From NCBI GenBank assembly GCA_003021975.1, contig PXRR01000012.1:5972-69971 (forward strand): a DNA stretch of 64,000 bases. Direction: 5' to 3'. The position numbers and the translations under genes are program-made. How positions within the stretch are numbered: position 1 is the stretch's first letter; every line of letters starts with the position of its first letter. Source of the DNA: Halobacteriales archaeon QS_5_70_17 (GTDB lineage: Archaea; Halobacteriota; Halobacteria; Halobacteriales; Haloarculaceae). Under the pieces are notes generated by a model. The model made no database searches. It saw only the letters and a list, made by a program, of their open reading frames with translations, and was not told where the DNA came from. This document shows positions 58,432-63,858 of this stretch, piece after piece.

Positions 58432-58494
58432 ATAGGTGCGGAATTCGCCAGCAGGGGTAGGTTTATGTGCGTCGTGTTGCTTGGGACGGATACA

Positions 58495-58555
58495 ATGTCC
58501 CACGACACCGAGGGCGCGTCGGCTTCGCCGGCGGGTCGAGTTCTCCCAGGGCACG

Positions 58556-58566
<11 letters not shown>
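58495..58566 (+). CDS. leuA upstream ORF / putative leader peptide (23 aa)
   Basis: ATG 58495 to TAA 58564-58566: MSHDTEGASASPAGRVLPGHVEY*, about 33 nt after a TATA-like element; overlaps, out of frame, the candidate LeuA start (TTG 58556). Confidence 0.4.
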
Positions 58567-59722
<1,156 letters not shown>

Positions 59723-59875
59723 TGTCGACGCCCGCGGTTCGCCCCGACCGACAGCACCAGCGCAAGCGCCGGCACCGCCGCCGTCGGCCGGGCGACCGTC
59801 CGCGGGGGCGAGAGCGGGGTGCCGAAACTTGCCCGACGAGTAACCCTTATAACCGCGGGCGCGAACGGACTGGCA

Positions 59876-59947
59876 ATGACGCTCCCGACCCCGCTCGCAC
59901 GCGGCGCGCGGACGACGAGCGTCGCGTCCGTTATCGTAGGGGCCTAG
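59876..59947 (+). CDS. ilvB leader peptide candidate (23 aa)
   Basis: MTLPTPLARGARTTSVASVIVGA*; ATG lies about 26 nt after CTTATAAC, consistent with a leaderless transcript; Val/Ile codons near the stop. Confidence 0.5.
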   Translation: MTLPTPLARGARTTSVASVIVGA

Positions 59948-59954
59948 CCCCTAC
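59936..59954 (+). promoter_or_regulatory. attenuator-like hairpin spanning the ilvB leader stop codon
   Basis: GTAGGGGC-CTA-GCCCCTAC, perfect 8-bp stem; leader TAG at 59945-59947 lies in the loop and the first base of the 3' arm. Confidence 0.5.
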
Positions 59955-60014
59955 TCCACTCTCCTCACCGCCGGCCGACGCATCGCGGTCCGACCCACCA
60001 GCGACTACCAGACA

Positions 60015-61775
60015 ATGAGCGAGCCCGCAAGTCCAACGTATCCAGACGAAGACGAAGCCACCGAGGAAGCAGCATCGAGCGACCGATCGACCGAGAGCCA
60101 GCCGACCACCGGCGCGGAGGCGACCGTCGCGGCCCTGGAGGCCGCCGGCGTGGAGCACGTCTTCGGCGTCCAGGGCGGGGCGATCATGCCCGTCTACGAC
60201 GCCCTCTACGACTCGGACGTGACCCACGTCACGATGGCCCACGAGCAGGGCGCGGCCCACGCCGCCGACGCCTACGGGCAGGTCACCGGCGAGCCCGGGG
60301 TCTGCATGGCCACGTCGGGGCCGGGGGCGACGAACCTCGTCACCGGCATCGCCGACGCCAACATGGACTCCGATCCGCTGGTGGCGCTGACCGGGCAGGT
60401 GCCGACCGACTTCGTCGGCAACGACGCCTTCCAGGAGACCGACACCATCGGCATCACCCGCCCGATCACGAAGACCAACTACTTCGCCAGCGACTCCGAC
60501 ACGGTCGGTGACACCGTCAGCGAGGCGTTCTCGCTGGCGCGCACCGGACGCCAGGGGCCGACGCTGGTCGACCTCCCGAAGGACGTCTCCAACGGCGAAA
60601 CCGACGCCGGCGTCGCCGAACCCGACGAGGAGGAAGCGCCGCCCGCCGCCGAACCGGCCGCCGTCGAGGTGGCCGCCGAGGCCGTCGCGGAGGCCGAGCG
60701 GCCGCTGATCCTCTCGGGCGGCGGCGTGACGAAAGGCGAGGCCAGCGAGGAGGTCCGGGCGTTCGCCACGGAGTACGGCATCCCCGTCGCCACCACGATG
60801 CCCGGCATCGGGACCTTCCCCGAGGACCACGAGCTCTGTCTCTCGTGGGCGGGCATGCACGGGACGGGCTACGCCAACATGGCCATCTCGCACACCGACT
60901 GCCTGATCGCGGTCGGGACCCGCTTCGACGACCGGCTGACCGGCGGCGTCGAGACCTTCGCGCCGGGCGCGAAGGTCGTCCACGTCGACATCGACCCGGC
61001 CGAGATCAGCAAGAACGTCCACGCCGACTACCCGCTGATCGGCGACGCGGCGACGGTGCTCGAACAGCTCGACGAGGCCATGCCCGCGGCGCCCGACGCC
61101 GAGGCCTGGCGCGGGCGCTGTCAGGACTGGAAACGGGAGTACCCGCTGACCTACGATACGCCGGACGACGAGCCGCTGAAGCCCCAGTTCGTCGTCGAGG
61201 CGCTCGACGAGATGACCGACGACGACGCCATCGTCACGACCGGGGTCGGGCAACACCAGATGTGGGCCGCGCAGTTCTGGACCTACACGGAGCCCCGCAC
61301 GTACGTCTCCTCGCACGGCCTCGGGACGATGGGCTACGGGCTGCCCGCCGCGATCGGCGCGAAGGTCGCCGCTCCCGACCGCGAGGTGGTCTGCTTCGAC
61401 GGCGACGGCAGCTTCCTGATGACGATGCAGGGGCTGTCGGTCGCGGTCCGCGACAGCCTCGACATCACGGTCGTCGTGCTCAACAACCGGGCGATCGGTA
61501 TGGTCCGGCAGTGGCAGGACGCCTTCTTCGAGGGCCGGCGGATGGCCTCGGAGTACCCCTGGATCCCGGACTTCGAGACGCTCGCGGAGGCGTTCGGCGC
61601 CCGCGGGTTCACGCTCCGGGAGTACGACGACGTCGCCAACGTCCTGGAGGAGGCCATGGAGTACGACGGTCCCAGCGTCGTCGACGCGCACATCGACCCC
61701 GCGGAGAACGTCTACCCGATGGTTCCCAGCGGCGGCGACAACGCGCGGTTCGCCCTCTCGGAGGACCAGCTATGA
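60015..61775 (+). CDS. ilvB: acetolactate synthase large subunit
   Basis: TPP-enzyme motifs: GVEHVFGVQGGAIMPVYDAL, MATSGPGATNLVTGIADA, GLGTMGYGLPAAIGAKVA, VCFDGDGSFLMTMQ. Confidence 0.96.
   Translation: MSEPASPTYPDEDEATEEAASSDRSTESQPTTGAEATVAALEAAGVEHVFGVQGGAIMPVYDALYDSDVTHVTMAHEQGAAHAADAYGQVTGEPGVCMATSGPGATNLVTGIADANMDSDPLVALTGQVPTDFVGNDAFQETDTIGITRPITKTNYFASDSDTVGDTVSEAFSLARTGRQGPTLVDLPKDVSNGETDAGVAEPDEEEAPPAAEPAAVEVAAEAVAEAERPLILSGGGVTKGEASEEVRAFATEYGIPVATTMPGIGTFPEDHELCLSWAGMHGTGYANMAISHTDCLIAVGTRFDDRLTGGVETFAPGAKVVHVDIDPAEISKNVHADYPLIGDAATVLEQLDEAMPAAPDAEAWRGRCQDWKREYPLTYDTPDDEPLKPQFVVEALDEMTDDDAIVTTGVGQHQMWAAQFWTYTEPRTYVSSHGLGTMGYGLPAAIGAKVAAPDREVVCFDGDGSFLMTMQGLSVAVRDSLDITVVVLNNRAIGMVRQWQDAFFEGRRMASEYPWIPDFETLAEAFGARGFTLREYDDVANVLEEAMEYDGPSVVDAHIDPAENVYPMVPSGGDNARFALSEDQL

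Positions 61776-62432: not shown

Positions 62433-62440
<8 letters not shown>
61772..62440 (+). CDS. ilvN: acetolactate synthase small subunit
   Basis: ACT domain [53 protein letters not shown] overlap with ilvB. Confidence 0.95.
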
Positions 62441-63486: not shown

Positions 63487-63858
63487 ATGACAGACACGAA
63501 CGACCCCGACCCCGAAGCCCCGGCGCGACACGAATCGACGGCAGCCGACGAGCAGGAGCGGTATCGCCCGACCCTGGCCGACCTGAGCCACAGCAACCCC
63601 CGGACCGGCGAGCGGTTCGGCGAGGCCATGGTCTACCGCCGCGGGCCCGCGGTGGCCGCCGACGGCGGCGCGGCCGGGGCCACACCCGAAGACGGCGAGC
63701 CGGAACCGGCTGCGGACGCCGAGAGCGAGCCCGAAACCGAGAGCGACGCCGGGACCTCGCGGGACCTCCGCGACGTCGACCACACTCCGCCCCGCGACGC
63801 CGAGGGCGCGAACCGCGTCCACGAGCGCGGCGGCGAGGGGCGCACGGAGAACGTATGA
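63487..63858 (+). CDS. hypothetical acidic protein between ilvC and leuC
   Basis: [53 protein letters not shown]...; ATGA overlap with leuC. Confidence 0.7.

Follow-up and report, generated by a model that had tools for sequence, protein, structure and literature searches.

Leader-peptide attenuation is a textbook bacterial mechanism, and no established archaeal example was found in the open-access literature searched. Haloarchaeal mRNAs are mostly leaderless, and translational control via 5' leaders has been judged untypical for them (PMC4983044). In Haloferax, TGATG and ATGA gene pairs are tightly coupled (PMC6728339), and termination-reinitiation coupling drops to nothing at a gap of about 20 nt (PMC10666635). 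Efficient haloarchaeal terminators are U-tracts, which in Haloferax terminate at 95%, one tested hairpin reaching 59% (PMC7237163). For the same operon, the available portion of a study by Pfeiffer and Dyall-Smith raises ribosomal slippage from an out-of-frame ATG for HVO_1510 and speculates on leucine control; that portion makes no mention of a leader before ilvB (PMC8305020). No earlier description of such a leader was found in the open-access literature, subscription and unpublished work lying outside that search. The arrangement upstream of ilvB reported here, as read from the DNA, points to an on/off switch that senses translation, for which bacteria offer precedents and archaea no established case.

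The window, the 64,000-nucleotide stretch of haloarchaeal DNA that was analysed, carries leuA (to 59722), ilvB, ilvN and ilvC in that order, with ilvD divergent. ATGA overlaps connect ilvB to ilvN (61772-61775) and ilvN to ilvC (62433-62436), and the 292 nt between leuA and ilvB, within which the studied element lies, form the sole gap among the four genes. A small acidic ORF (63487-63858) is located between ilvC and leuC, its end overlapping leuC (ATGA). The features of the leuA-ilvB region are as follows.

58495..59722, + strand: leuA, 2-isopropylmalate synthase; Pfam matches to HMGL-like and HCS_D2 only
59722..60018, + strand: bridge ORF, 98 aa, MSTPAVRPDRQ...PATTRQ then stop, in frame -1 to the leader
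59846..59853, + strand: TATA box CTTATAAC of the putative internal promoter, about 29 nt 5' of the leader ATG
59876..59947, + strand: leaderless leader-peptide ORF MTLPTPLARGARTTSVASVIVGA then stop, 23 codons, ATG at 59876
59930..59938, + strand: candidate regulatory codons GTT ATC GTA (Val-Ile-Val), the GTA doubling as the 5' end of the hairpin
59936..59954, + strand: hairpin GTAGGGGC-CTA-GCCCCTAC, perfect 8-bp stem, 3-nt loop
59945..59947, + strand: leader stop TAG, its TA ending the loop and its G beginning the 3' arm
59955..59969, + strand: C/U/A tract tccactctcctcacc without G, adjoining the 3' end of the hairpin; candidate site of release or factor loading
60015..61775, + strand: ilvB, acetolactate synthase large subunit, the proposed regulated gene; TIGR00118, 703 bits

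The ilvB ATG at 60015 is 60 nt past the window hairpin. A first-pass annotation had described the TATA box, leader ATG, ORF, hairpin, stop and ilvB start, and all of these coordinates were recovered on re-reading. Its leader, codons and hairpin hold up in the comparison below; what it missed is the second conserved ORF that encloses them in another frame, and with the element nested in this bridge ORF the mechanism we propose differs from the one it envisaged. The comparison drew on ilvB genes from 147 genomes of the same order (57 genera), the upstream DNA of which was read to give 128 usable loci; a second ilvB copy (L080) and a basal-family locus (L136) stand outside the 128 that were scored. 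Several counts were taken on loci picked by the motif GTAGGGG. Because the loci share ancestry, counts do not represent independent events, and comparisons between frames within a locus are the safer tests.

The leader proposed from a single sequence proved to be widespread, with GTAGGGG in the leader frame 5' of ilvB at 124 of the 128 loci, and its conservation is far from chance. A TTATAA/TTTATA-like box, preceded by a CRNAAS (BRE-like) block, is centred about 29-30 nt 5' of the leader ATG (120 loci), the spacing of leaderless haloarchaeal transcripts, and a box score of at least 5/6 was reached at 94 of 120 leaders versus 2 of 123 loci at the same spacing before ilvB. With the frame not preset, the best TATA-plus-ATG pair proved to be in the leader frame at 97 of 97 loci, with no stop before GTA, bearing out the leaderless ORF of the first-pass annotation. 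The leader stop follows GTA at 9 nt in 66 loci and at 12 nt in 54 (120 of 124 in total); over the interval from +6 to +15 past GTA, 120 stops were counted in the leader frame and none in either alternative frame. Across haloarchaea the leader measures 16-40 codons, its C-terminus is conserved as ...(I/V/L)-Ile-Val(GTA)-Gly(GGG)-(Ala/Val)-stop, and indels within the ORF leave the frame intact; start, frame, end and Ile/Val codons are kept despite drift of the peptide body (pN/pS 0.76). The conserved start, frame, stop and end codons thus identify the leader as a real, conserved, leaderless ORF, and retention of these elements around a drifting body is, by analogy, the behaviour of attenuator leader peptides.

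As in a ribosome-dependent attenuator, an ORF with end-product codons lies just upstream of ilvB, judged from sequence and predicted translation. The codon preceding GTA is Ile at 119 of 124 loci (ATT 88, ATC 31) and otherwise Val, Leu or Phe, and Ile plus Val account for 44% of the last 8 leader codons versus 9% of the body, in agreement with the Ile/Val regulatory codons suspected from the window. Within the ilvB genes of these genomes, GTA accounts for only 0.8% of the codons for Val and ATT for 9% of those for Ile; in the leaders, GTA is present in 124 of 124 (partly owing to the search motif) and ATT in 88 of 124 (71%). Changes at the conserved end are of the synonymous kind that had been predicted for a translated leader: ATT and ATC are exchanged, the codon following GGG is GCN with all four third bases (or GTN), and TAG, TAA and TGA all serve as the stop. 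At 21 of 105 tabulated loci the third base of GTA remains A although nothing in the stem pairs with it, which may mean that the codon as such is important.

Of the 124 loci, 123 have a stem with GGGG, whose loop measures 3-13 nt and whose mean MFE is -13.3 kcal/mol, and the GGGG:CCCC core is Watson-Crick in all 105 loci having 3-, 4- or 6-nt loops. The CCCC 3' arm is at the right place in 122 of 124 loci versus about 39 in shuffles. The stop codon, first noted inside the window hairpin, occupies the loop or the 3' arm at 119 of the 123 loci, and with GUA-GGG constituting the 5' arm the position of a ribosome could decide whether the hairpin forms. One expectation of the first-pass annotation was disappointed in that compensatory stem changes are nearly absent (the innermost pair has T-A in place of C-G six times), because the 5' arm is fixed as codons; support for the hairpin comes from retention of the CCCC arm at variable loop length, the 3' arm being noncoding in the leader frame. 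Viewed in the window alone the hairpin is unremarkable, as the 64 kb hold 48 perfect stems with 8 bp or more and 3-8 nt loops versus 11-26 in shuffled sequence, and the fold of the 161-nt window leader gives z = -1.35. Of 60 relatives, 47 have roughly one copy per genome of the pattern ATYGTAGGGGYN{3,8}CCCC (reversed control, 1 of 60), and outside the class only five chance-like matches, without the stop, were obtained. No close relatives were found in plasmids, and an Rfam covariance-model search returned only a chance-level mir-4928 match (E = 0.61), with no ilvB motif or riboswitch. In the 15 nt past the hairpin the mean G content is 5% versus 24% further on, and 51 loci have no G there. 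The longest T run past the hairpin is mostly 2-4 nt and in most loci not adjacent to the stem, and a classic intrinsic terminator is ruled out by the missing U-run. In the window fold, no antiterminator helix competing for either arm was seen.

Four of the 128 loci (L098, L125, L130 and L135) are exceptions to GTAGGGG. At L098 (G043:C9), which is a second copy of ilvB, the gene is preceded by a variant leader, MVEFATFDFAIFRRNSIIGASY (...SIIGASY-stop), with Ile in place of the Val codon and with ATTATTGGGGC...AGCCCC. The leaders of L125 and L130 end in ...SIRVRAAMAH-stop or similar with a GGGCC/GGCCC stem, while L135, from an AT-rich small genome, and its relative L134 have in common the leader MKAVVRTK.GLFVSCAAVQV.VGA (...VQVFVGA-stop). 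In the very small genomes of family f2 (G018, G032 and G042, about 1 Mb) the leader peptide is kept (seen in G018 and G032) and the hairpin is weaker; the one f2 locus checked for a bridge ORF, in G032 (L134), is without it.

At the window locus the bridge ATG overlaps the leuA stop (TGATG, 59720-59724) and the bridge TGA overlaps the ilvB ATG (ATGA, 60015-60018). The bridge ORF spans promoter, leader and hairpin free of stops in 110 of 110 loci with leuA visible; relative to the leuA stop it begins at -1 to +21 nt in all 110, TGATG being the commonest arrangement, versus 0 of 110 for each of the other two frames. For 95 of the 110 an overlap of its end with the ilvB start was scored, the remaining 15 mostly reflecting a doubtful choice of ilvB start (GTG starts) or a frame that ends early. 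From -130 to +60 around GTA the bridge frame contains no stop in 120 loci, in contrast to up to 8% stops per codon in the other frames. Leader and ilvB stand in a preferred phase (99 of 124), which is kept in 21 of 27 sister pairs with altered spacer length, because the bridge frame is kept. The encoded peptide is Arg-, Pro- and Thr-rich, has no match in Pfam or NCBIfam, and shows pN/pS of 0.89 upstream and 0.65 downstream versus 0.14 in the end of leuA; neither the purifying selection nor the known family of an ordinary small protein is seen, and both ends have the spacing of termination-reinitiation (overlap or within about 20 nt). Since coupling fails beyond about 20 nt, a leuA-ilvB gap of 100-350 nt would need such a bridge, and from the nearly unconstrained peptide we conclude that the ORF most likely acts as a translational bridge, its role being to carry ribosomes from leuA to ilvB over the regulatory segment. 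The Haloferax locus numbers leave room for HVO_1509 between ilvB1 (HVO_1508) and leuA2 (HVO_1510), a candidate bridge slot.

We consider it probable that this element, placed with its internal promoter inside the ORF that couples leuA to ilvB, serves as a ribosome attenuator sensing Ile/Val; ribosome stalling, termination as the blocked step and re-initiation at the leuA-ilvB junction are what we infer. The internal promoter would yield a leaderless mRNA beginning at or near the leader ATG. When Ile- or Val-tRNA is scarce, the leader ribosome would stall on AUU/AUC or GUA with its footprint over the 5' arm, so that no hairpin forms and transcription continues into ilvBNC. When Ile and Val are both ample, the ribosome would finish at the loop stop and depart, the hairpin would form, the G-free C/U-rich tract would be exposed, and transcription would stop (hairpin-assisted or FttA/aCPSF1-type) or the ilvB mRNA would be otherwise silenced. 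The ribosome would serve as both sensor and antiterminator, a second structure being unneeded with the regulatory codons next to the stem or part of it. Masking of the stem would depend on the footprint geometry of archaeal ribosomes, a point against the model. On mRNA begun 5' of leuA, bridge ribosomes would pass the leader stop, melt the hairpin and reach ilvB by termination-reinitiation, and leucine demand acting via leuA could then drive ilvB with the Ile/Val attenuator left closed. Also counting against the attenuator model are the missing U-run, the scarcity of covariation in the stem and the failure to see an alternative antiterminator in the window fold. Translation of ilvB from the short transcript is a further difficulty: an SD-like motif precedes ilvB in only 76 of 123 loci, and haloarchaea do not rely on SD motifs for de novo initiation (PMC6728339).

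The missing U-run would suit a post-transcriptional device in which the leader ribosome forms or melts the hairpin and alters the translation or stability of ilvB mRNA, not termination, with the G-free tract as a ribosome- or RNase-access site and a hairpin-ilvB distance of about 60-340 nt. We regard this as unlikely, as no conserved pairing between hairpin and ilvB start was seen across a long and highly variable spacer, and the open bridge frame suggests that untranslated RNA is harmful here, as it would be for termination or polarity. That same frame, open from the hairpin to the ilvB ATGA, could be entered by leader ribosomes through a -1 shift at the hairpin, carrying them to ilvB with Ile/Val shortage tuning the shift; a slow codon followed by a hairpin and the very likely frameshifting of neighbouring leuA would be in keeping with this. 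However, the bridge frame is also open 5' of the leader to leuA, which a shift at the hairpin does not require, and GTA GGG GCN is a poor -1 slip site whose GGGG favours +1, a frame that is not stop-free, so we give the -1 shift hardly any weight. A +1 slip on GGGG into the ilvB frame was rejected, as selection has not kept that frame free of stops. An N-terminal extension of ilvB back to the hairpin was also rejected: the ilvB frame contains stops, the spacer carries no codon-position signal, and the phase bias is accounted for by the bridge frame.

Possession of its own promoter, stop and hairpin would permit the leader to be a stand-alone micro-gene, a leaderless ORF with a hairpin terminator producing a trans-acting peptide or RNA while ilvB is transcribed from leuA only, and bacterial leader peptides offer a precedent in peTrpL, which is said to be able to act in trans. 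This is quite improbable for a peptide whose body is unconserved (pN/pS 0.76) and whose conserved codons are of the regulatory type only, and for an element that is always positioned directly 5' of ilvB and is absent where LeuA retains its allosteric domain. The perfect inverted repeat of the window and its extreme conservation might alternatively mark a DNA operator, the palindrome GTAGGGGC..GCCCCTAC 3' of the start site being bound by a repressor; yet an arm spacing of 3 to 13 nt would be intolerable for a rigid dimer site, and the in-frame stop (120 versus 0 in other frames) and the extension to ATT-GTA in the codon-bearing arm only make an operator very improbable.

The Ile/Val attenuator that we favour does not appear to be a device general to amino-acid operons, as no Trp leader was found before trpC in 30 haloarchaeal loci (L167-L196). 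In several of these loci a MYxSVRRCT-like stretch is shared in an open frame just 5' of the trpC start, which suggests a conserved TGTACA-type DNA motif and possible operator.

The distribution of the leader can be set beside the domain architecture of LeuA. By Pfam, the window leuA is without the LeuA allosteric domain PF08502 (LeuA_dimer). Two basal families, f9 and f11 (G009, G011, G025 and G037), have a leuA with 530-550 codons open that includes PF08502 and adjoins ilvB with neither leader nor bridge. At 111 loci outside these families LeuA ends about 65 residues past the GKH motif, with no room for PF08502, and ilvB has its leader (loci bearing on the domain: leuA 58495-59722 in the window, and L136, L227 and L228). 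A protein-level leucine switch may have been lost and an RNA/translation-level switch gained; domain loss and leader gain are probably one event, and the association is therefore only suggestive.

The logic of the ilvB leader may extend one gene upstream, to leuA itself. In the window a leuA leader ORF (58495-58566, MSHDTEGASASPAGRVLPGHVEY then stop), preceded by a TATA-like TTTATG (58462-58467), overlaps the leuA N-terminus, and at each of the 30 loci read leuA is overlapped, out of frame, by a leaderless ATG ORF with the C-terminus ...R-V-L-(P)-G-H-x-stop (leuA start loci L197-L226 and L232-L237), the overlap falling at the near-invariant block TCGAGTTCTTCCAGGGCAC. After that ATG the leuA frame is without ATG, GTG or TTG in 26 of the 30 loci, 12 having none at all, and the out-of-frame arrangement is seen in the basal families too. 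With a usable in-frame start missing in most genomes, the probable route to LeuA is a +1 frameshift, for which CTT-CNA may be the site, and this wider sample supports, at the level of predicted frames, the slippage idea of Pfeiffer and Dyall-Smith for leuA. Tentatively, we can conceive of leuA-ilvBNC being run by translation alone: a leuA frameshift at a leucine codon from an out-of-frame leaderless start, a leaderless Ile/Val attenuator for ilvB and a bridge of valueless peptide would together form a 'Leu OR Ile/Val' gate, the leader and bridge having arisen where LeuA lost its leucine-binding allosteric domain.

In an attenuator of the type proposed, the leaderless leader ORF would itself be the sensor, order-wide (57 genera) and in hosts with good genetics, and the device would render archaeal transcription-translation coupling directly testable. 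The bridge ORF indicates that a promoter and attenuator can sit in an operon with translational coupling unbroken, and represents a clean case of selection on a reading frame with none on the peptide.

Among described systems, the locus is similar to the ribosome-mediated attenuators of bacterial ilv, leu and trp operons (E. coli ilvB and ilvG, Corynebacterium ilvBNC and the ilvB-II motif, PMC10272879) in its short leader with BCAA codons before ilvB, in the stop and hairpin of that leader and in the expected response to charged tRNA. In contrast to bacterial attenuators, it has an archaeal host, a leaderless start and a single hairpin with codons in the 5' arm and the stop in the loop, shows no antiterminator (in the window fold), U-run or Rfam match, and is nested in a second ORF. 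The uORFs of long Haloferax volcanii 5'-UTRs are likewise short (15-31 aa there), but ilvB is not among the 16 listed, and a hairpin/codon logic is not described there (PMC4983044). The Haloferax leuA2 start-codon case concerns the same operon and a leaderless out-of-frame ATG proposed for leuA, but there the ORF would frameshift into leuA, whereas the leader described here stands apart from ilvB and terminates ahead of it (PMC8305020). Finally, the TGATG and ATGA overlaps and strict short spacing are those of Haloferax termination-reinitiation (PMC6728339, PMC10666635), but unlike the coupled genes of Haloferax, the middle ORF here would encode no functional protein and appears to be a spacer kept for its frame, with a promoter and leader embedded in another.
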